From the NCBI GenBank assembly GCA_026398835.1, contig JAPLSD010000799.1, positions 1 through 12,449 of the forward strand: a stretch of 12,449 nt of DNA, read 5' to 3'. Shown piece by piece: positions 719 to 8,693 of the stretch; positions within the stretch are counted from its first letter, which is position 1, and the number at the start of each line of letters is the position of its first letter. A program made the position numbers and the translations under genes. This DNA is from Pseudomonas sp. (GTDB taxonomy: Bacteria; Pseudomonadota; Gammaproteobacteria; Pseudomonadales; Pseudomonadaceae). Below the pieces are notes generated by a model. The model saw only the letters and a list, made by a program, of their open reading frames with translations. It was not told the DNA's origin and made no database searches.

Positions 719-1714
719 TCATTTTCCAGACTTGATGTCCTCTTTGAGGTAACGCTCTAGCTCATTTTGTCGCTGGCAGCCGACGAGCATCCAGAGCAGG
801 ATTCTGGCTTTGCGCGGACAGAGAAATCCCGCCATCGATGCACCTTTGCGGATCAGATCCATCTCGCTGCCAATAAAACCATAAGAGGACTGAGCGGTAG
901 AGCCTGAACCGGTCCGGGTCGCAATGATGACCGGGATTTTTTCTGCGATTTTTTCGATAGCCTCAGCCCAGCTCTCTGAGACGTGTCCTGCGCCGAAACC
1001 AGCGATAACCAGTCCGTCGTACCCCAGCTTGAGGATGTTCTCCAATAGCAAGGTGTCCGCAGAAAGAGATGCTTCCAGCAGGGCAATCTTCTGGGTTGTC
1101 TGGTGTGGCAAGGGTAAAAGCATCCGGGGGGCCGGCCGGCGTAGATAGCGGACGGTTCCCTCCACGAGCATGCCTGTGGGACCAAAAACTGGGGAGGTAA
1201 ACGCTTGCAATGCCAATGAGTCGGTTTTACGGACGCTGCACGCTGGGTGAGTCTGGCCGTTCATTACCACCTGAACGCCTCGCTGACGGCTGTTTTCAGT
1301 CAGTGCTACTCGGCAGGCATCCAGCAGATTCGCCGGCCCATCGGCCCCCACTTGGGCTGCTGAACGCATAGCACCGGTCAGGACCAGAGGTTCGTCGTGA
1401 TTCCACAAGTAATCGAAAAATATTGCTGTTTCTTCGAGGGTGTCCGTGCCCTGAGTGATGACAACGCCAATAGCGCCTTGCTCAACCTGGTATTTCGCCC
1501 AGGAAAGGACACTCAGCAAGAACTCGAAATCCAGTGAGGCACTTGGGAGTAGCCCGAGTGTTTCAACGGTCACCCGGGCCAGTGTCGTCAGTTCCGGTAC
1601 CGAGGCCAGGAGGGTTTCGCCGCTGACTGTCGGGATAACACCTTCACCAGCATTTCTGGCTTGCATGCTCACGGTGCCGCCGAGAGCCGCGATGGCCAGT
1701 TTGGGCAGGTTCAT
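719..1714 (-). CDS. L-asparaginase family amidohydrolase (cytoplasmic)
   Basis: A 331-residue protein of the bacterial asparaginase/glutaminase family, which hydrolyses the side-chain amide of asparagine (or glutamine and related amides) to the acid and ammonia. Family landmarks are in order. LGGTVSM at 11-17 has the nucleophile Thr14, although the usual motif is TGGTIA. TQGTDTLEET at 87-96 has the second catalytic pair Thr90/Asp91. TGAMR is at 113-117 and VRKTDS at 161-166 carries catalytic Lys163. There is no signal peptide, so it should be cytoplasmic, unlike the periplasmic type II enzyme. The ATG at 1714 has a GAGG ribosome site about 9 bases upstream. It is the last gene of the minus-strand block, 100 bases after the membrane protein gene. 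The substrate may be asparagine or an amide made by the upstream enzymes; the sequence does not decide this. Confidence 0.87.
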   Translation of the reverse strand: MNLPKLAIAALGGTVSMQARNAGEGVIPTVSGETLLASVPELTTLARVTVETLGLLPSASLDFEFLLSVLSWAKYQVEQGAIGVVITQGTDTLEETAIFFDYLWNHDEPLVLTGAMRSAAQVGADGPANLLDACRVALTENSRQRGVQVVMNGQTHPACSVRKTDSLALQAFTSPVFGPTGMLVEGTVRYLRRPAPRMLLPLPHQTTQKIALLEASLSADTLLLENILKLGYDGLVIAGFGAGHVSESWAEAIEKIAEKIPVIIATRTGSGSTAQSSYGFIGSEMDLIRKGASMAGFLCPRKARILLWMLVGCQRQNELERYLKEDIKSGK

Positions 1715-1742
1715 GTCATACCTCGCTCGATTTATTGCGATT

Positions 1743-1789
1743 AAAAAGTGGCTGTACCCAGTCTTCAGTGGCGGGACATTGGTACAACC
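1743..1789 (-). terminator. Possible attenuator hairpin before the asparaginase gene
   Basis: In the 100-base gap between the membrane protein stop and the asparaginase start, GGTTGTACC (minus strand, 1789-1781) can pair with GGTACAGCC (1758-1750) through a 9-bp stem with one G-U pair. A T-run (1747-1743 on the minus strand) follows two bases after the stem. This is the form of an intrinsic terminator or attenuator. The loop is long (22 bases), so the call is tentative. If real, it would lower asparaginase expression relative to the genes upstream. Confidence 0.4.
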
Positions 1790-1814
1790 GAATGGGAGAA
1801 GTGCGGCTTATGAA

Positions 1815-3035
1815 TTAATTGGTTATCAGGAGTCCGATAAGCGGAACGATCAGCAAGGTGCTGATGGCCATGGACAAGACATTCCCGATGTAGGAATGCA
1901 TGTCGGTCGGCAACCTTTTGGCAATCGCACACGCCAAGGGTGGCGCAATAAGTGCTCCTAGCAGTGCGCTTGAGCCTATGACCTGCCAACTGCCGCCATA
2001 TGTCAGAACCGCCGCCGGCACTACGGACACCAGCGGAATGTAGGTGGGATACCAGCCGCGCAATATCCATTGTCGACGCCAGATCACCACGCCTAAAGCT
2101 GACGTCAAAGCCTGCGCGCCGATCAGCTGTGGCAGCAAACCTGAGCCGTATACCGGACTCATGGGGTTCAAGGTGTAAGCCAACACCGCCCCCAGTAACA
2201 GGCCAAGGCTGGCCAGTTCATTGCCAAAGAACGGCGCTTCCGAAAAGTCTGCCAAAACTCGGCGCAGGCTCCAGAAAACTCCGTAGTCAGGTGTCTTTTT
2301 TACGGCAACTGCGGCCGAAGAGTCGGATGGCTTCTCAGATAGGCCGGATTGCTCGGACTTCACCAGGCTCGGCAGGTACCGACAGAGCAGAAAGGCAATG
2401 ACACTGGCGACAGCCATGCCCGAGACATTGCCAATCACAGCTGGCAAACCCAATGGATTACATACGTAGTTGACGATCAGCAAACACATCGGGGTGACGA
2501 GCACGGCGCCCATGATTGCTCCGTTGATCGTGACCTTCCAGCCACCTCCAAACATCAGCACCATCGCCGCCGGCAATGAAACAAATGCCGCAAACGTGGG
2601 TTGCCAACTTGTCGCCGTGACCGTCCAGCCCCAAAGGAGGTTACTCAGCAGCAGTCCAAGCAGCGAGCTAGTGATCAGCCATGGCCATAATCCAGTGCCG
2701 TAGGAAATGGCAAAACCTTGCCAGGACTTCCCCGTTCGATTCGCCCAGTAGGCCAGATAGGCCCCAGCCAGCAGCCCGATAGAAGCGAACTCGTGTTTGT
2801 AGAAGGCAACCTCGCTGATGTCTCCCAGCACCCAGCGCAGCCAGGCACTCGGCTCGGAAAGGCTCGACACCATGTCACTGTAGCTTGGCCAATGTGCTGA
2901 CCAGGAAGAGCGGTTGGTGAATGAAAGCCAGATAATCAGCAGTATCGTGCCGATCATCAGCAGGATGATCGCAGTATCAAGCAGCGATCTACTGGCAAGT
3001 CGGTTCGGCCGGTGTTTTTCGGTTGTGGTTTCCAT
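1815..3035 (-). CDS. Unrecognised polytopic membrane protein with an internal duplication
   Basis: A 406-residue integral membrane protein that I cannot assign to a named family. After a short basic N-terminus there is a hydrophobic helix at about 19-39, then two homologous halves at about 65-221 and 256-404. The halves match strongly: VLGDISEVAFYKHEFASIGL (69-88) against VLADFSEAPFFGNELASLGL (260-279), PAAMVLMFGGGW (155-166) against PAAVLTYGGSW (340-350), and IGNVSGMAVAS (201-211) against IGNVLSMAIST (383-393). A charged linker (about 222-255) joins them. A two-repeat membrane fold suggests a transporter, but no transport signature is visible. The start follows the nitrilase stop by 17 bases, with a GGGGG stretch about 11 bases before the ATG, which suggests translational coupling. 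By context it could move the substrate or product of the monooxygenase/amidase pair. Confidence 0.85.
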   Translation of the reverse strand: METTTEKHRPNRLASRSLLDTAIILLMIGTILLIIWLSFTNRSSWSAHWPSYSDMVSSLSEPSAWLRWVLGDISEVAFYKHEFASIGLLAGAYLAYWANRTGKSWQGFAISYGTGLWPWLITSSLLGLLLSNLLWGWTVTATSWQPTFAAFVSLPAAMVLMFGGGWKVTINGAIMGAVLVTPMCLLIVNYVCNPLGLPAVIGNVSGMAVASVIAFLLCRYLPSLVKSEQSGLSEKPSDSSAAVAVKKTPDYGVFWSLRRVLADFSEAPFFGNELASLGLLLGAVLAYTLNPMSPVYGSGLLPQLIGAQALTSALGVVIWRRQWILRGWYPTYIPLVSVVPAAVLTYGGSWQVIGSSALLGALIAPPLACAIAKRLPTDMHSYIGNVLSMAISTLLIVPLIGLLITN

Positions 3036-3052
3036 ACGTCATGCCCCCGCTA

Positions 3053-3940
3053 TCAGCGCGGGAGACAAGGGTGTTGGGTATAACCGAGCATCTGATCGTA
3101 GAGATCGGCTCGACGATCGCGATGCAGATCGTTCAAGTTGTTCCAGATGGGCGCACTACGGGAGCTGGTCAGGTCAATATCGGCAAACAGAATTTCTTGC
3201 TTGTCCGCAGAGGCCACTGAGCCGATAGGCCAGCCATTGGTACCGGCAATCAGTGAGCAGCCCAGGTAACGAGCACCTCGCTCTTCGCCGATCCGGCTGG
3301 CGGCTGCAATAAACACGTTGTTGACGTGAGCTGCCGTCATCGTCAGATACGAAGCCATGCACTTGCCGGCGTCGTCGAACAGGGGCGGAGGCGTCCAGAC
3401 CCAGTTGTTCAAGCTGCAAATAATGTCCGCGCCTTGCTGACTCAGGATTCGCGGCACTTCCGGGAACCAGATATCCCAGCATATCAACAACCCGATGCGG
3501 CCTATTGGCGTATCAAAAACAGGGAAGCCGAGATCACCTGGTGTGAACCATAGTTTTTCCAGGTTCCACAAATGGGCTTTTCGATACTTGCCAATATAAC
3601 CGTCAGGTCCCACAAGAACGCCGGTGTTGAAGAGTCGCATACCGTCGCGTTCGGTCAAGCCGGCCACCAGGTAGACCTTGTGCTTGCAGGCGAAATCCAT
3701 CCAGACTTGCACACTCGGCCCGCAGGGAATCTTCTCCGAATGATCGAAGGCATCCTGGCGATTGCTGAAGAAATAACCGGTATTTGAAAGCTCAGGTAGA
3801 ACGATGAGATTTGCCCCCCCGTTCACCGCCTCCAGGGCCAAATCCAGACCATAACGTAAATTACGCTCACAATTCGCCATGCCGACTTGTGGGTCGAATT
3901 GCACGACTGCTACACGAACAGGACTTGTTGATTCGCTCAT
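3053..3940 (-). CDS. Nitrilase-superfamily carbon-nitrogen hydrolase (probable amidase)
   Basis: A 295-residue cytoplasmic enzyme of the carbon-nitrogen hydrolase superfamily, which cleaves amide, carbamoyl or nitrile C-N bonds through a cysteine thioester. The full catalytic set is visible: Glu50 in VLPELSNTGYFF, Lys121 in KYRKAHLW, Cys154 in LLICWDIWFPEVPRIL, and the additional Glu128 in WNLEKLWFTPG. I chose the ATG at 3940 because AGAGGT lies 8 bases upstream. A TTG at 3970 would add ten residues (MQNNKKRSSE) lacking family similarity. The C-W-D-x-W-F-P-E context resembles amidase and N-carbamoyl-amidohydrolase branches more than true nitrilases, but substrate cannot be read from sequence. 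Next to an amide-forming monooxygenase, hydrolysis of that amide to an acid plus ammonia is the simplest role. It does not look like the DavA amidase of lysine catabolism. Confidence 0.9.
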   Translation of the reverse strand: MSESTSPVRVAVVQFDPQVGMANCERNLRYGLDLALEAVNGGANLIVLPELSNTGYFFSNRQDAFDHSEKIPCGPSVQVWMDFACKHKVYLVAGLTERDGMRLFNTGVLVGPDGYIGKYRKAHLWNLEKLWFTPGDLGFPVFDTPIGRIGLLICWDIWFPEVPRILSQQGADIICSLNNWVWTPPPLFDDAGKCMASYLTMTAAHVNNVFIAAASRIGEERGARYLGCSLIAGTNGWPIGSVASADKQEILFADIDLTSSRSAPIWNNLNDLHRDRRADLYDQMLGYTQHPCLPR

Positions 3941-3987
3941 TTCGGACGACCTCTTTTTATTGTTTTGCAACCTGTGTGGTTGTCTTT

Positions 3988-4058
3988 TTTATAAGAGTCG
4001 AACCGGCTGATGGCGTAAGTCAGCAGTTTCCTTTTAGGCTGTAGTCCCGATCCCTAAA
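3988..4058 (-). promoter_or_regulatory. Candidate promoter and operator upstream of the nitrilase gene
   Basis: On the minus strand, 48 bases before the nitrilase ATG, there is a TATAAA box (3993-3988) with no good -35 at 16-18 bases. Upstream of it lies a perfect inverted repeat, TTTAGG-N14-CCTAAA (4033-4058), 40 to 65 bases before the box, where an activator of the LysR or AraC type would bind. A weak -35 together with an upstream palindrome fits activator-dependent transcription. This rests on pattern only. Confidence 0.3.
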
Positions 4059-4145
4059 GTTGATGAGGGGTAGTTCGATTTTGCTCGATTGGCGGCAAAA
4101 TGGCCCGATAGTGCTGGTAGGGAGGGATTTATGGTGGGTGAGGCT

Positions 4146-4172
4146 GAGCCAATACACTTCATGCATTGGCTC
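4146..4172. repeat. Hairpin after the monooxygenase gene
   Basis: GAGCCAAT (4146-4153) and ATTGGCTC (4165-4172) form a perfect 8-bp stem around an 11-base loop, starting 20 bases after the monooxygenase stop in the direction of transcription. No T-run follows on the minus strand, so it is not a standard terminator. It may protect an mRNA 3' end or mark a processing site. The rest of the 252-base spacer (3941-4192) holds the candidate promoter and operator and no gene that I can see. Confidence 0.5.
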
Positions 4173-4192
4173 TTGAGCGGCGAGAATGGAGG

Positions 4193-6139
4193 TCAGCTCC
4201 TGAGCTTGTATTCTGGATAGTCACTCATGGAAAAACCGCCATTGAATGTAGCTTCGGTTTTATTGCAGATATGAATGACCGCATCGACGGCGCCTCGAAA
4301 GCAAGGTTCTGTCCAGCCGGCATCGACTGAAAAGGACTCGCCAGAAAAATAGAGGCCTGAAATATGTGAAAAGTCCCTGTTGTACTTCATCAAGCCTACG
4401 GCGTCGTAGTAGGTGCCGGGCCGGTATAACTTGGCACACCCCAAGGCATTTTTATCGGTCATCCAGCGCTGGACGACTGCTTGATCAATACCGATATAGG
4501 GAGAGATTTTTTCTTGAATATTGGCGGAGTTCATGAGTATCCGATCAAGCTCTTTTGCGCACTTCGTAACAAGCTCTTTGTCGGTGAATGAGGCGAGTTT
4601 GGTTGCGTCATCCTCCCATGTGTAGCTTAGAAGAATGCAGTCATAACTATAGTTTTCATTATAGCGATAGGTGTATATGTCATGGATAAAGCTGTCTGTG
4701 ACTATGGCCTGCGGAATTTTGGTGTTTTTTGATAAGAATGATTTTTTTAACGGCGCATAGACTTTACAGCTGGTTTCCCAGTGAGCAGTTTTATAGGCAT
4801 TGATTGTGTCGAACGGAAGCATCTCCTGGTTGAAGTTTTCCAGTTTGATTCGTGTTTCGATCAGCCATGAGGGAAGGGTCATGATGACAGAGTCAAAATC
4901 ATCGAATAATTCCTGAGTTTGCTCGGGGCGGCTGGATTTCCAGTTGAAGTAGACGCGTGTTTTTTGGTTATCCAGTTTTTTCAGCTTCGTCACGGATGAG
5001 TCCGTGAGGAAACCGGTACTTCTTTCAATGCTGTGTTCATAGAAGGATTTTCCGGTTTCCTCTGTTTTCATGAATAGCAGACATTCATCCAAAGTAGCTA
5101 GCCCGATATACCGAGGCCTATCGAAGTCCAGTCCCTTTGAGTCAAAAACGGCTTCGCTGTGCAAGCAAGGTGAATCTATAGGCTCACCGCTTGAGTCTAC
5201 TCGACCATGGATCAGTTGTAGCTGGCTGCTGAATCCAAAAATTGCAGTACGCAGGGGATAAAGGGAGCAGACGTCATAAAAGGCGCCCCAGCTACCGTCA
5301 CCAATGCCTATCGAATAGAAAACAGCAGACTCTTCTGTGGTCATGCCCATCCCACCGAAATTTCCGGGTGAGCTTTCATGCCAGGTTTCTACTGCGGGCA
5401 TGCTGACCAGGTCGCGAAATGAAATGCTCTCGTATTTTTCGACGATAGCGGCCCACATGGCTTCCCATTGTTGACTGGCGTAAACCTCTGCTACGTGGCG
5501 AGTCATGCGGTCGGCAAATGCTTTCCACTTGGCGTAAACCTTTTGAAGCTCCTCGCCGGGCGGCGGTGTCAGGCCGTCTTCATTCGTCCATATCAGCATC
5601 TGTGGAGTAGGTCCGCCCCCCACGCTTCCTTCTCGAAGATAGATTCCAGTCGACGTTACCCACTGGCTTCCAGGATTGGGGAAGTCTGAAATAGACAAGT
5701 CAAATTCCTTGGCATAGTAAGCCATCAGGGATCTACCCTCCGTAGGTGGCTCGCCTGCTCTGTTGAAGAAGGGCATGCGCATAGCCCCCATTTCAAACGG
5801 TGTATGACTCGCTGCGGAGTTCCGACTTCCAGAAACTGTAAGGTGTCTGCCACCTATGCGTTTAGATTGTTCTATAAGCGTTATATCGGTAAAGCCGCAA
5901 CGATAAAGTTCTCTGGCGGCAGTGAGTCCAGTCACACCTGCACCAATGATGCATATTTTATGGTTTGGGTTGGTTGCTTTTGCGATGCCATTCTCTTGAT
6001 CTACTAATGCTCGATAGTCAAAGCATAAGTCTGGCGGGTTCGGGAAGCGAGCGACCCATTTATTTTTAGCGGAGCGCGTTGTTCGAGCAGTATCCTTGGC
6101 AATATCTGAAGGATAATTGTAGCTTGATCCGATAGTCAC
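4193..6139 (-). CDS. Flavin-dependent L-amino acid 2-monooxygenase family protein (tryptophan/phenylalanine 2-monooxygenase-like)
   Basis: A 648-residue FAD enzyme of the amine oxidase superfamily. The dinucleotide-binding motif IIGAGVTGLTAARELYR is at 64-80, ending in Glu90, and RIGGRH follows at 94-99. GAMRMP at 118-123 matches the GAMRFP of tryptophan and phenylalanine 2-monooxygenases, whose Arg binds the substrate carboxylate. LLSYTWEDDATKL (503-515) is a near match to the same family's LLSYTWEDD segment. The C-terminal FAD segment is GLYFSGESFSVDAGW at 595-609. These enzymes oxidatively decarboxylate an L-amino acid to the shorter amide; some act as plain oxidases. It is longer than tryptophan 2-monooxygenase (about 557 residues), with about 60 residues before the FAD motif. 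The start is GTG, with AGGGA about 10 bases upstream. GC is low (24 of 60 bases at 4681-4740), which suggests acquisition. The substrate is unknown. Confidence 0.85.
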   Translation of the reverse strand: MTIGSSYNYPSDIAKDTARTTRSAKNKWVARFPNPPDLCFDYRALVDQENGIAKATNPNHKICIIGAGVTGLTAARELYRCGFTDITLIEQSKRIGGRHLTVSGSRNSAASHTPFEMGAMRMPFFNRAGEPPTEGRSLMAYYAKEFDLSISDFPNPGSQWVTSTGIYLREGSVGGGPTPQMLIWTNEDGLTPPPGEELQKVYAKWKAFADRMTRHVAEVYASQQWEAMWAAIVEKYESISFRDLVSMPAVETWHESSPGNFGGMGMTTEESAVFYSIGIGDGSWGAFYDVCSLYPLRTAIFGFSSQLQLIHGRVDSSGEPIDSPCLHSEAVFDSKGLDFDRPRYIGLATLDECLLFMKTEETGKSFYEHSIERSTGFLTDSSVTKLKKLDNQKTRVYFNWKSSRPEQTQELFDDFDSVIMTLPSWLIETRIKLENFNQEMLPFDTINAYKTAHWETSCKVYAPLKKSFLSKNTKIPQAIVTDSFIHDIYTYRYNENYSYDCILLSYTWEDDATKLASFTDKELVTKCAKELDRILMNSANIQEKISPYIGIDQAVVQRWMTDKNALGCAKLYRPGTYYDAVGLMKYNRDFSHISGLYFSGESFSVDAGWTEPCFRGAVDAVIHICNKTEATFNGGFSMSDYPEYKLRS

Positions 6140-6380
6140 AGTTGATCTTCCCTGTCAGGTGCGCAGTTATCGTGTGTTGATGTTGTTTGCAGGGATGTAT
6201 GTTGAAGTCTTAAGCGGTTGGCTTACAAGTGTAAAGTCGAGTTCTCTAGTGCTCTGTGTTCCGATTTTTGTGTAGGATAAATACTCGTGAGGCTAGGGAT
6301 TGTATTTTAATAGGGTGTTGTATTTGTGAGTTAGATATAAGTGTTGAATTGGAATTGTTGGTAACGCTCAAATGTTCAAT
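6140..6380 (-). promoter_or_regulatory. AT-rich upstream region of the monooxygenase gene
   Basis: No gene is visible here. The stretch is very AT-rich (17 G/C in 60 bases at 6301-6360) compared with the flanking core genes. It must hold the monooxygenase promoter on the minus strand, but I see only weak matches, such as TTTACA-N17-TAAGAC (6235-6207). A perfect small palindrome, TTACA-CT-TGTAA (6223-6234), lies 84-95 bases before the GTG start, overlaps that weak -35, and is a possible regulator site. Confidence 0.35.
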
Positions 6381-6411
6381 AGGCGCCGCTCAGCTATCTG
6401 AGACGGCGCCT
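6381..6411 (-). terminator. Strong hairpin after the AraC-family regulator gene
   Basis: AGGCGCCG-CTCAG (6381-6393) pairs with CTGAG-A-CGGCGCCT (6398-6411), a 13-bp stem with one bulged base and a CTAT loop. It lies 5 bases after the regulator stop codon in its direction of transcription. The bases after it (ATTGAACATTT) are AT-rich but not a real T-run, so it is probably a weak or factor-assisted terminator. Confidence 0.6.
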
Positions 6412-6416
6412 GTTCT

Positions 6417-7412
6417 TTAAGCCGCCTGCTGAAACTGCTGCCGATACTGATTCGGCGACAGCTCAGTGTGCTGGCGGAACAACCTGGCAAAGAAGCTCGC
6501 ATCGTCATAACCGACTTCATAGCTGATGGTCTTGATGCTTTTGCGACTGGCGGAGAGCAGACCCTTGGCGGTTTCGATGCGCAGGCGTTGCAGGTAGTGC
6601 AGCGGCTTGTCGCCGGTGGCGGTCTGGAAGCGACGCATGAAGTTGCGGATGCTCATGCCGTGTTCGCGAGCGACGTCCTCGAAGCGGAACTTGTCGGCGA
6701 AGTGCTCTTCGAGCCAGTGCTGAATCTGCAGGATGATCACGTCCTGGTGCAGTTTCTGTCCGCCGAAACCGATTCGGCCGGGGGCGTAGCTGCGTTGCAC
6801 TTCATAGAGAATGTCGCGGGCCACGGCTTGGGCAATGTTGCTGCCGCAGAAGCGTTCGATCAAGTAGATATAGAGGTCGCAGGCCGAGGTGGTGCCGCCG
6901 GCGCAGTAGAGGTTGTCGGCGTCGGTCAGGTGCTTGTCCTGATTGAGATGGACCTTGGGGAAGCGTTCGCTGAAGGCATTGAAGAAGCGCCAGTAGGTGG
7001 TCGCCTCCTTGCCGTCGAGCAGGCCGGCTTCGGCGAGCCAGAAGACTCCAGTGGCTTCGCCGCAGAGCACGGCGCCGCGGGCGTGTTGTTCGCGCAGCCA
7101 TGGCATCACTTGTGGATAACGCTGGCAGAGTGTTTCGAAATCGTCCCAGAAGGCCGGCAGGATGATGACGTCGGTATTTTCCAGGCCGCCGTCCACTGGC
7201 AGGATCACATCGCTGAAGCTGCACACCGACTGTCCATCGGGGCTGACCAGACGGGTTTCGAATGCCGGGGTCAGGCCGTGGCCGAGTTGTTTGCCATAGC
7301 GCAGGCTGGCCAGATGAAAGAAATCCTTGGCTTGCATAAGGGTTGAGGCGAAAACCCGATCGATAGCCAGGATGCTGACGCGCCGCAGGGGCGTGGAGAG
7401 CTGGATAGACAT
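6417..7412 (-). CDS. GlxA-type transcriptional regulator (DJ-1/PfpI domain plus AraC DNA-binding domain)
   Basis: A 331-residue regulator with an N-terminal class I glutamine amidotransferase-like (DJ-1/PfpI) domain at about 10-200 and a C-terminal AraC-type double helix-turn-helix at about 225-328 (RFEDVAREHGMSIRNFMRRF at 243-262; ISYEVGYDDASFFARLFRQH at 296-315). Such proteins sense a small ligand and bind DNA; relatives control carnitine, choline and arginine catabolism. The usual cysteine of the CTGAF nucleophile elbow appears as Ala120 in GEATGVFWLAEAGLLDG, with a Cys three residues earlier, so the domain is probably only a sensor. Its ATG at 7412 has a weak ribosome site. It is divergent from the acyl-CoA dehydrogenase gene, which may be its target, and it lies upstream of the monooxygenase gene on the same strand. 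A PAO1 counterpart is, from memory, PA4436. Confidence 0.9.
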   Translation of the reverse strand: MSIQLSTPLRRVSILAIDRVFASTLMQAKDFFHLASLRYGKQLGHGLTPAFETRLVSPDGQSVCSFSDVILPVDGGLENTDVIILPAFWDDFETLCQRYPQVMPWLREQHARGAVLCGEATGVFWLAEAGLLDGKEATTYWRFFNAFSERFPKVHLNQDKHLTDADNLYCAGGTTSACDLYIYLIERFCGSNIAQAVARDILYEVQRSYAPGRIGFGGQKLHQDVIILQIQHWLEEHFADKFRFEDVAREHGMSIRNFMRRFQTATGDKPLHYLQRLRIETAKGLLSASRKSIKTISYEVGYDDASFFARLFRQHTELSPNQYRQQFQQAA

Positions 7413-7556
7413 AATTCAATTATTCTTATAGGGGAAAGTGGTCACCAAACGGCTGGATCGTCTTATTTTTTGTCGGATGTGTCCAGTGTCCTGTGAGGGA
7501 TAGGCGGCATAGGCTCTGTGGGTCAATCCCGACTAACAATAATTAGAGGTGTCCGC
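7413..7556. promoter_or_regulatory. Divergent promoter region between the GlxA-type regulator and acyl-CoA dehydrogenase
   Basis: This 144-base spacer separates two divergent starts and must carry both promoters and probably the regulator's binding site. A TATAAG box (minus strand, 7430-7425) lies close to the regulator ATG. For the dehydrogenase I see only AT-rich AACAATAATT just before its AGAGGT ribosome site. I cannot place the -35 elements with confidence. Confidence 0.4.
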
Positions 7557-8693
7557 ATGGTCCCCAGAACCTTGTTCAGTTCCGAGCACGAACTCTTTCG
7601 CGACAGTGTGCGTACCTTTCTCGAAAAAGAGGCTGTGCCGTTCCATGGGCAATGGGAAAAACAGGGATACATCGACCGCAAGCTATGGAACAAGGCGGGG
7701 GAAGCGGGGATGCTCTGCTCGCATTTGCCGGAAGAGTACGGTGGGCTGGGGGCGGACTTTCTCTACAGTGCGGTGGTGATTGAAGAGGTCGGCCGTCTCG
7801 GATTGACCGGTATTGGCTTTTCACTGCACTCGGACATCGTTGCGCCCTACATCCTGCATTACGGCAGTGAAGCCCTGAAGCACAAATACCTGCCGAAACT
7901 GGTCTCTGGCGAAATGGTCACGGCCATTGCCATGACGGAGCCGGGCGCCGGTTCCGACCTGCAAGGGGTGAAGACCACTGCGGTGCTGGACGGTGACGAG
8001 TACGTGATCAATGGCTCGAAAACCTTCATCACCAACGGCTTTCTTGCCGACCTGGTGATCGTCGTGGCCAAGACCGATCCGAAGGCGGGCGCGAAGGGCA
8101 CCAGCCTGTTCCTGGTGGAAGCGGACACGCCGGGCTTTGCCAAGGGCAAACGTCTGGAAAAGGTCGGCATGAAGGCCCAGGACACTTCGGAGCTGTTCTT
8201 TCAAGACGTCAGTGTGCCCAAGGAGAACCTGCTGGGGCAGGCCGGGATGGGCTTCGCCTATCTGATGCAGGAGTTGCCGCAAGAGCGCCTGACGGTCGCG
8301 ATAGGCGGTCTGGCGTCGGCCGAAGCGGCTTTGCAGTGGACGCTGGAATACACCCGCGAGCGCAAGGCGTTTGGCAAGGCCATCGCCGATTTTCAGAACA
8401 CCCGTTTCAAATTGGCGGAAATGGCCACTGAAATACAGATCGGCCGGGTCTTCGTCGACCGCTGCCTGGAGCTGCATCTGCAAGGCAAGCTGGACGTGCC
8501 GACGGCGGCGATGGCCAAGTACTGGGGCACTGATCTGCAATGCAAAGTGCTCGACGAATGCGTGCAGTTGCATGGCGGTTACGGCTTCATGTGGGAGTAC
8601 CCGGTGGCCCGCGCCTGGGCGGATGCGCGGGTACAGCGGATCTATGCGGGGACCAACGAGATTATGAAGGAGATTATTGCGCGGTCTTTGTAA
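7557..8693 (+). CDS. Acyl-CoA dehydrogenase, long-chain (LCAD)-like
   Basis: A 378-residue FAD-dependent acyl-CoA dehydrogenase, which introduces a trans-2 double bond into an acyl-CoA thioester and passes electrons to ETF. The signature AMTEPGAGSDLQG is at 125-137, KTFITNGFLADLVIVVAKTD at 155-174, RKAFGKAIADFQ at 269-280, and QLHGGYGFMWEYPVARAW at 337-354. The MCAD-type catalytic Glu position is Ala364 here (IYAGTNEIMKE), while Glu243 in LPQERL matches the alternative catalytic Glu of LCAD and isovaleryl-CoA dehydrogenases. I chose the ATG at 7557 because AGAGGT is 6 bases upstream. A GTG at 7518 would add 13 unsupported residues. It is divergent from the AraC/DJ-1 regulator, which may control it. 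The acyl substrate is not determined. A PAO1 counterpart is, from memory, PA4435. Confidence 0.93.
   Translation: MVPRTLFSSEHELFRDSVRTFLEKEAVPFHGQWEKQGYIDRKLWNKAGEAGMLCSHLPEEYGGLGADFLYSAVVIEEVGRLGLTGIGFSLHSDIVAPYILHYGSEALKHKYLPKLVSGEMVTAIAMTEPGAGSDLQGVKTTAVLDGDEYVINGSKTFITNGFLADLVIVVAKTDPKAGAKGTSLFLVEADTPGFAKGKRLEKVGMKAQDTSELFFQDVSVPKENLLGQAGMGFAYLMQELPQERLTVAIGGLASAEAALQWTLEYTRERKAFGKAIADFQNTRFKLAEMATEIQIGRVFVDRCLELHLQGKLDVPTAAMAKYWGTDLQCKVLDECVQLHGGYGFMWEYPVARAWADARVQRIYAGTNEIMKEIIARSL

Follow-up and report, generated by a model that had tools for sequence, protein, structure and literature searches.

We analyzed a 12,449-nucleotide stretch of Pseudomonas DNA (the window; contig C135 of a genome assembly with 881 contigs and an estimated completeness of 73.87%) that carries four minus-strand genes at 719..6139, referred to here as MONO, NIT, MEM and ASN (Table 1). 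A preliminary description of the window had reported four adjacent genes on one strand, a gap of 17 bases between the nitrilase and membrane protein genes, and a duplicated membrane protein; we confirmed four minus-strand open reading frames and a gap of exactly that length, and the two halves of MEM are 36% identical over 148 residues (BLASTP, E = 1.3e-17 in a one-pair comparison). MONO matches Pfam family PF01593, NIT matches PF00795 and ASN matches PF00710/PF17763; MEM matched no Pfam or NCBIfam family at an E-value of 0.001. The longest open reading frame of NIT begins at a TTG codon at position 3970 and encodes 305 amino acids.

Table 1. Positions of the four genes, their repeats and the gaps between them in the window
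Feature	Position	Strand	Remarks
MONO, flavin amino acid oxidase/2-monooxygenase family protein	4193..6139	-	648 amino acids, GTG start
MONO-NIT gap	3941..4192	-	252 bases; hairpin at ~4146-4172, without T run
NIT, nitrilase-superfamily amidase	3053..3940	-	295 amino acids, ATG start
NIT-MEM gap	3036..3052	.	17 bases
MEM, membrane protein, unnamed family, predicted urea-transporter fold	1815..3035	-	
MEM repeat 1 (residues 66-213), holds E75	2397..2840	-	internal BLASTP
MEM repeat 2 (residues 257-395), holds E266	1851..2267	-	internal BLASTP
ASN, asparaginase-fold amidohydrolase	719..1714	-	331 amino acids; below curated type I and type II cut-offs

MEM and ASN are separated by 100 bases, and MONO and an upstream regulator gene by 277 bases. 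Because the MONO-NIT gap is wide, transcription of the four genes as a single unit is unproven. The hairpin in this gap has a fold z-score of only -1.4, with 15 of 200 shuffled sequences folding equally well, and we therefore do not claim it as a terminator. Predicted promoters and terminators showed no clear excess over shuffled sequences.

Conservation and loss of the genes within Pseudomonas

We scanned GTDB, using one genome per species, and identified 113 relatives of MONO, of which we analyzed the loci of the best 80, some of them cut by contig ends. All 80 come from genomes with Pseudomonas in the title. NIT lies directly downstream of MONO in 79 loci, with the contig of the remaining locus ending inside NIT. 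MEM directly follows NIT in 77 loci and lies upstream of MONO in L115 and L119, and ASN directly follows MEM in 55 loci (anywhere in the locus, 58/80). The MONO-NIT gap ranges from 62 to 239 bases, with a median of 171 (79 loci), and the NIT-MEM gap is 13-18 bases in the 43 close-relative loci in which the MEM match begins at residue 1-2. The MONO frame is interrupted in some of the 80 loci (L077, L117), and MONO is matched in two pieces in L100, L112 and L128. The gene arrangement is not due to chance. The chromosomal position seen in the window is common to 42 of the 80 loci; the others lie elsewhere, including one group without ASN. The conserved unit is the cassette, not its chromosomal place. 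Among the 60 largest clusters of neighboring open reading frames in the 80 loci, no further candidate pathway genes were found: only MONO, NIT, MEM and ASN exceed 42 loci.

The upstream regulator (6417-7412) combines a DJ-1/PfpI-like N-terminal part with an AraC helix-turn-helix, and its nearest NCBIfam models, FtrA and GbdR, are both matched below cut-off. We considered this gene as a member of the set and rejected it, because it accompanies the cassette in one chromosomal position only (42/80 loci), as does rpsI. The locus map ties the genes for an acyl-CoA dehydrogenase, an aldo-keto reductase and petA to that position in the same way. Two loci (L062, 6842-7810; L128, 6840-7808) carry an additional AraC-like gene immediately upstream of MONO and on the other strand; it shares 26% identity with the regulator of the window. 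L127 has a second, divergent copy of MEM (399-1484), which is separated from MONO, 2 kb downstream, by a gene for a thiamine-pyrophosphate enzyme.

We next surveyed the presence of each gene in 119 Pseudomonas genomes, counting NIT at >=65% identity. NIT was found in 41 genomes, with two more at 49-50% identity; MEM in 39, a total that omits G109, where the match is weak and broken; ASN in 31, including one partial match; and full-length MONO in 26, one of which (G037) has an internal TGA. All 39 genomes with MEM also contain NIT, which is adjacent to MEM in 37 of them. Of the 39, 26 have a full-length MONO, six have MONO in pieces (G057, G067, G076, G081, G085, G102) and seven lack it (G002, G004, G007, G040, G052, G106, G116); ASN is present in 30 and missing from nine. 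In G007, NIT lies at a contig end, so that the absence of MONO there rests on a genome-wide match search; in G072, MONO lies on another, short contig. The syntenic locus of G002 retains NIT-MEM-ASN and lacks MONO. On a tree of NIT (42 rows, two of them outgroup, with G051 left out), MONO presence was coded in four ways: it changes at least 10 times if pieces of MONO are coded as absent, 11 times if G037 is also coded as absent, and 7 times if pieces are coded as present or left out. These counts are approximate, since 14 of the 39 inner branches are weakly supported. The cassettes of G037 (L050, L077) and G046 (L193) appear to be decaying, with broken MEM frames and, in G037, the internal TGA in MONO.

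These data show that the core of the set is NIT-MEM. The gene order, whose conservation across Pseudomonas the preliminary description had proposed as a check, is kept in the 80 loci, but the make-up of the set varies. Co-occurrence follows the same pattern: full-length MONO is always accompanied by NIT and MEM in the genome (26/26), but NIT-MEM occurs without full-length MONO in 13/39 genomes, and ASN is missing from the nine genomes noted above. Absence of co-occurrence, the outcome that the preliminary description named as refuting its inference, is thus half borne out, and its interpretation is supported in part. These observations bear on the idea of a closed catabolic path leading from amino acid to amide to acid, which would require every one of the four genes, with MEM bringing in the amino acid or letting out the product and ASN acting in this path too. 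Both the conserved order and the constant company of full-length MONO are consistent with such a path, as is the proximity of monooxygenase and nitrilase genes in two other Pseudomonas loci (L144, L145). However, NIT-MEM persists without MONO, which led us to reject a strict four-gene pathway, and the predicted fold of MEM is unlike that of a known amino acid carrier. Taken with the plasmid data below, we consider a closed path unlikely.

MEM and NIT outside Pseudomonas

A tblastn search of plasmids with MEM identified six records, at 36-49% identity, all outside Pseudomonas. MONO gave no match within 9 kb of MEM in any of the six, which likewise counts against the four-gene block of the preliminary description as a fixed set. 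An amidase gene directly adjoins MEM in 5/6 records: the order is asparaginase-nitrilase-MEM in Paenarthrobacter, nitrilase-MEM-amidase-tautomerase in Phyllobacterium, and amidase-MEM in three records (two from Rhodococcus and one from Prescottella), with the domains at L204-L206 confirmed by domain scan. The two plasmid nitrilases beside MEM are 67% and 63% identical to NIT of the window. Thus, the amide hydrolases that accompany MEM come from three families: nitrilase, amidase-signature and asparaginase. Beside the amidase-MEM pair in L206 and L207, at ~11600-19000, lie genes for a type 1 glutamine amidotransferase, AmiS/UreI, an amidase, a glutamine synthetase-like protein and an acetate-CoA ligase, a neighborhood that resembles an acetamide or amine catabolic cluster.

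We also searched plasmids for NIT and found five records above 60% identity, among them Streptomyces (L211), Embleya (L212, unannotated) and Variovorax, and 66 records below 60%. MEM is present with two of the five. In Variovorax, genes for an ATP-binding cassette (ABC) transporter lie directly upstream of NIT, which is followed by an amidase and a tautomerase that are 57% and 70% identical, respectively, to those of Phyllobacterium (NIT, 73%). In Phyllobacterium, MEM takes the place of the Variovorax ABC transporter. The Variovorax binding protein and first permease best match urea ABC models, below cut-off. Because MEM is swapped with an ABC-type transporter, the simplest reading is that MEM has a transport role with the substrate of NIT or a close analogue.

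Similar arrangements are found around more distant relatives of NIT. Four of the 66 records below 60% identity were examined, and in two (L213, L215) NIT is next to an ABC transporter, followed by urease or amidase. In two Pseudomonas genomes (G048, G044), a NIT of 49-50% identity is the first gene of a cluster that also contains ABC genes and an asparaginase sharing 34-36% identity with ASN. UrtABCDE models are the closest to the ABC proteins of G048, with scores below cut-off, and two ABC proteins of G044 have the same Pfam domains as those of G048. These Urt-like ABC clusters (L200, L201, L210, L213, L215) resemble the locus of the window in having a related NIT (47-65% identical) and an asparaginase (L200/L202, L201/L203) or an amidase (L210, L215), but differ in having an ABC transporter where the window has MEM and, in L213, urease instead of a second amidase. 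Amidase operons of the AmiS/UreI type, for which we take the ami operon of Pseudomonas aeruginosa and Rhodococcus amidase clusters as examples, likewise place a small-amide amidase beside a dedicated membrane channel, and in L206 and L207 the stretch a few genes away from MEM includes an AmiS/UreI gene accompanied by an amidase. By contrast, MEM did not match PF02293 (AmiS/UreI), has a different predicted fold, and is partnered by a nitrilase-superfamily protein.

Predicted fold of MEM and the paired hydrolases

Structural modeling predicts that MEM adopts a duplicated urea-transporter (UT) fold. An acidic residue at the start of each repeat may be a further resemblance to UT/SLC14 proteins (PF03253); both residues, E75 and E266, are the same in all 24 sequences compared, which come from Pseudomonadota and Actinomycetota. 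MEM differs from these proteins in lacking a detectable sequence relation and in having an amidase as its partner. With a profile of UT repeat 2, the best two of 387 segments of MEM hold E266 and E75 in register, with scores reached by 15 and 52 of 300 shuffles, respectively. A profile of UT repeat 1 selected segments at 73, two residues out of register (10/300 shuffles), and 262 (14/300), and pooling both repeats ranked the segment at 262 first (8/300) and that at 73 second (179/300). This is no more than suggestive of a Gln/Glu-type UT motif at the repeat starts.

Two other functions for MEM were weighed. Since NIT would release ammonia, MEM could conduct this product in the manner of Rh/Amt channels, rather than an amide; however, urea transporters score twice as high, and the transporter swapped for MEM between Variovorax and Phyllobacterium is of the urea type, making an ammonia channel very unlikely. 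Public records label MEM mostly as hypothetical and in a few cases as a membrane protein or a threonine/serine exporter. The latter name would make MEM a ThrE-type exporter, and PF06738 indeed gave weak matches to 12 of 22 members at E-values up to 5. Moreover, no ThrE structure is among the 50 fold matches listed, so the fold comparison leaves ThrE standing. Nevertheless, the PF06738 match spans just 72 residues and, at 18.1 bits, stays below the cut-off of 26.3, and the fold prediction and amidase neighbors point elsewhere; we place very little weight on a ThrE-type function.

MEM was found in two of 398 Pseudomonadota genomes, both Pseudomonas, with five first-look candidates scored in the listed genomes; this survey misses some MEM, because the plasmid search found an alphaproteobacterial copy. 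In several Pseudomonadota, PF03253 matches lie inside open frames of ~710-870 codons (L159-L161, L163-L171, L175, L178-L186), which may reflect UT domains within larger fusion proteins or may simply be long frames.

The hydrolases retain the expected catalytic residues. NIT matches PF00795 with 170 bits against a cut-off of 23.2 (E = 6e-50, 305-amino-acid form) and scores below the NCBIfam cut-off for aliphatic amidase; E50, K121 and C154, which we take to be the Glu-Lys-Cys triad of nitrilases, are invariant in 21 sequences. ASN matches PF00710 (E = 2e-50) and falls short of the NCBIfam cut-offs for TIGR00519 (120.7 against 260.5 bits) and TIGR00520 (187.3 against 314.3 bits). T14, T90, D91 and K163 of ASN, presumably the catalytic Thr, Thr, Asp and Lys of asparaginases, are invariant in 16 sequences aligned to 5k4g. 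An invariant E284 aligns with a Glu of 5k4g, and residue 59 is Ala in 16/16 sequences where 5k4g has Gln. 5k4g is the Wolinella asparaginase. ASN may not be a plain L-asparaginase. No signal peptide was seen in ASN by eye.

MONO and the proposed function of the locus

MONO matches the flavin adenine dinucleotide amine oxidase domain PF01593 with 102.8 bits (cut-off 19.8). Its best sequence match in the PDB is tryptophan 2-monooxygenase (TMO; 4iv9), and its best fold matches are the L-Lys oxidase/monooxygenase of AIU 813 (L-amino acid oxidase/monooxygenase, L-AAO/MOG) followed by 4iv9. R121, Y506, K459, W559 and W609 align with active-site residues of 4iv9 and are invariant in 25 sequences, and the same residues are kept in alignment with the iaaM product of L142, a TMO-like protein (L143) and two AIU 813-like proteins (L144, with E = 5e-97 against 3we0, and L145, placed by alignment). 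Membership of MONO in the L-amino acid oxidase/2-monooxygenase group, as the preliminary description had it, is thus supported. We assume that the Arg and Tyr bind the substrate carboxylate, and that the Lys and an aromatic cage act as in TMO. Part of these role assignments draws on passages of PMC5832979. The same passages report that D238 of AIU 813 binds the lysine amino group; in an alignment through L144, MONO has F287 at this place and so lacks the acidic lysine-selecting residue. The MONO model has a predicted local distance difference test (pLDDT) score of 67.6, below 50 at residues 278-309, and its pocket details are therefore not trusted.

Two known systems share the logic of an amino acid monooxygenase and an amide hydrolase. 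DavB-DavA (lysine 2-monooxygenase and 5-aminovaleramidase) differs at the positions of D238 and C254 of AIU 813, occupied in MONO by F287 and F303, and the locus of the window adds a transporter and ASN. IaaM-IaaH (tryptophan 2-monooxygenase and indoleacetamide hydrolase) shares the TMO active-site residues with MONO. A rival reading is an auxin or signal route, in which MONO makes indole-3-acetamide or phenylacetamide, NIT converts it to an auxin, and MEM releases the auxin. Public names label some MONO relatives as tryptophan 2-monooxygenase, and in passages of PMC3596284 the authors on strain UW4 put forward a route through indole-3-acetamide on the basis of a gene bearing this name, which may correspond to MONO. 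However, MONO forms a separate branch and is 25% identical to iaaM of L142, with several insertions, one of ~35 residues. In that Pseudomonas locus (4135-8632), the genes after iaaM are an amidase-signature gene (PF01425), rather than a nitrilase gene, and a carboxyl transferase domain gene, and the TMO-like gene of L143 is likewise followed by a PF01425 amidase. A urea-type pore would also be narrow for indole compounds. We regard an auxin route as highly improbable. The partners of MONO point to small-amide nitrogen metabolism, which warns against calling MONO a tryptophan 2-monooxygenase and taking its presence as a sign of auxin synthesis.

We think it reasonably probable that NIT and MEM, joined in most cases by ASN, make up a module for amide transport and hydrolysis, to which MONO is a feeder in many Pseudomonas. 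MEM, as a channel of UT fold, would provide a passage through the inner membrane for a small amide or a urea-like solute, most likely in the inward direction; in the cytoplasm, NIT would hydrolyze the amide, yielding acid and ammonia; and ASN would cut a second or related amide. Where present, MONO would convert an L-amino acid and O2 to the amide one carbon shorter and CO2, and this amide would then be hydrolyzed by NIT. The purpose is probably uptake and breakdown of small amides for nitrogen. Of this picture, the gene content and its conservation, the conserved catalytic residues, the predicted fold, the company of amidases and the exchange of transporters are observed, whereas the substrates, the transport direction, the cellular locations and an amide rather than a keto acid as the product of MONO are inferred. 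The enzymes are ordinary and the pairing of an amidase with an amide transporter is known; the transporter type is unrecognized and the monooxygenase feeder optional. A search of titles and abstract openings in the open-access literature found no description of this gene set or of MEM.

More tentatively, MEM may found an unrecognized family of amide channels that has the UT fold without detectable sequence relation to UT proteins, that is exchanged for urea-type ABC transporters in amidase operons, and that, joined with MONO in Pseudomonas, would allow one locus both to make an amide and to pass it through the membrane. MEM has so far been found in Pseudomonas, Phyllobacterium, Rhodococcus, Prescottella, Arthrobacter and Paenarthrobacter. 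If this is correct, the amide could be shared, or retaken as a nitrogen store or signal, and strains lacking MONO could live on the amide of others.

Several observations weigh against the amide module. MEM is not next to NIT in G086 and G051; NIT occurs without MEM in G017 and G091; and MEM is found as two matches, with a broken frame, in G037 and G046. A second, divergent MEM copy in L154 (4967-6148) has no NIT beside it; this copy and that of L127 are about 50% and 60% identical, respectively, to MEM of the window. The sixth MEM plasmid, from Arthrobacter (L209, unannotated), has no match to NIT or ASN in 19 kb, and five neighboring open reading frames that were scanned are of other kinds. 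No annotated transporter lies next to NIT in the Streptomyces record, and the distant NIT loci L214 and L216 have different neighbors. Urea itself is not implied as a substrate, because all matches to Urt models fall below curated cut-offs. The model of MEM, built from 22 similar sequences, is of middling confidence (pLDDT 70), and Foldseek E-values against UT structures are 0.06-0.29. Sequence proof of homology between MEM and UT was sought and rejected: hhalign, run twice, gave a probability of 1, two profile searches of the PDB gave no match, and PF03253 matched none of 22 MEM members at E-values up to 5 or of 24 at up to 1. The motif comparison is only suggestive. Lastly, passages of PMC5832979 report that C254 of AIU 813 sets the oxidase/monooxygenase ratio and that C254I abolishes monooxygenase activity; MONO has F303 at the aligned position, and it is possible that MONO is an oxidase, yielding a keto acid rather than an amide. 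This lowers our confidence in the proposed module slightly, since it speaks somewhat against the amide step. The iaaM product of L142 carries Tyr at this place.

The proposed module gives a mostly "hypothetical" protein a concrete, testable role, that of a UT-fold amide channel traveling with amidases. Repeated losses of MONO from loci that keep NIT-MEM provide natural strain pairs for finding the amide. AIU 813-like oxidase/monooxygenase genes also lie near a nitrilase gene, 37-38% identical to NIT, in two other Pseudomonas: in L144 (4201-7169) the oxidase and nitrilase genes are divergent neighbors, and L145 (3807-15228) holds the nitrilase together with a Transp_cyt_pur permease and two AIU 813-like oxidase genes.

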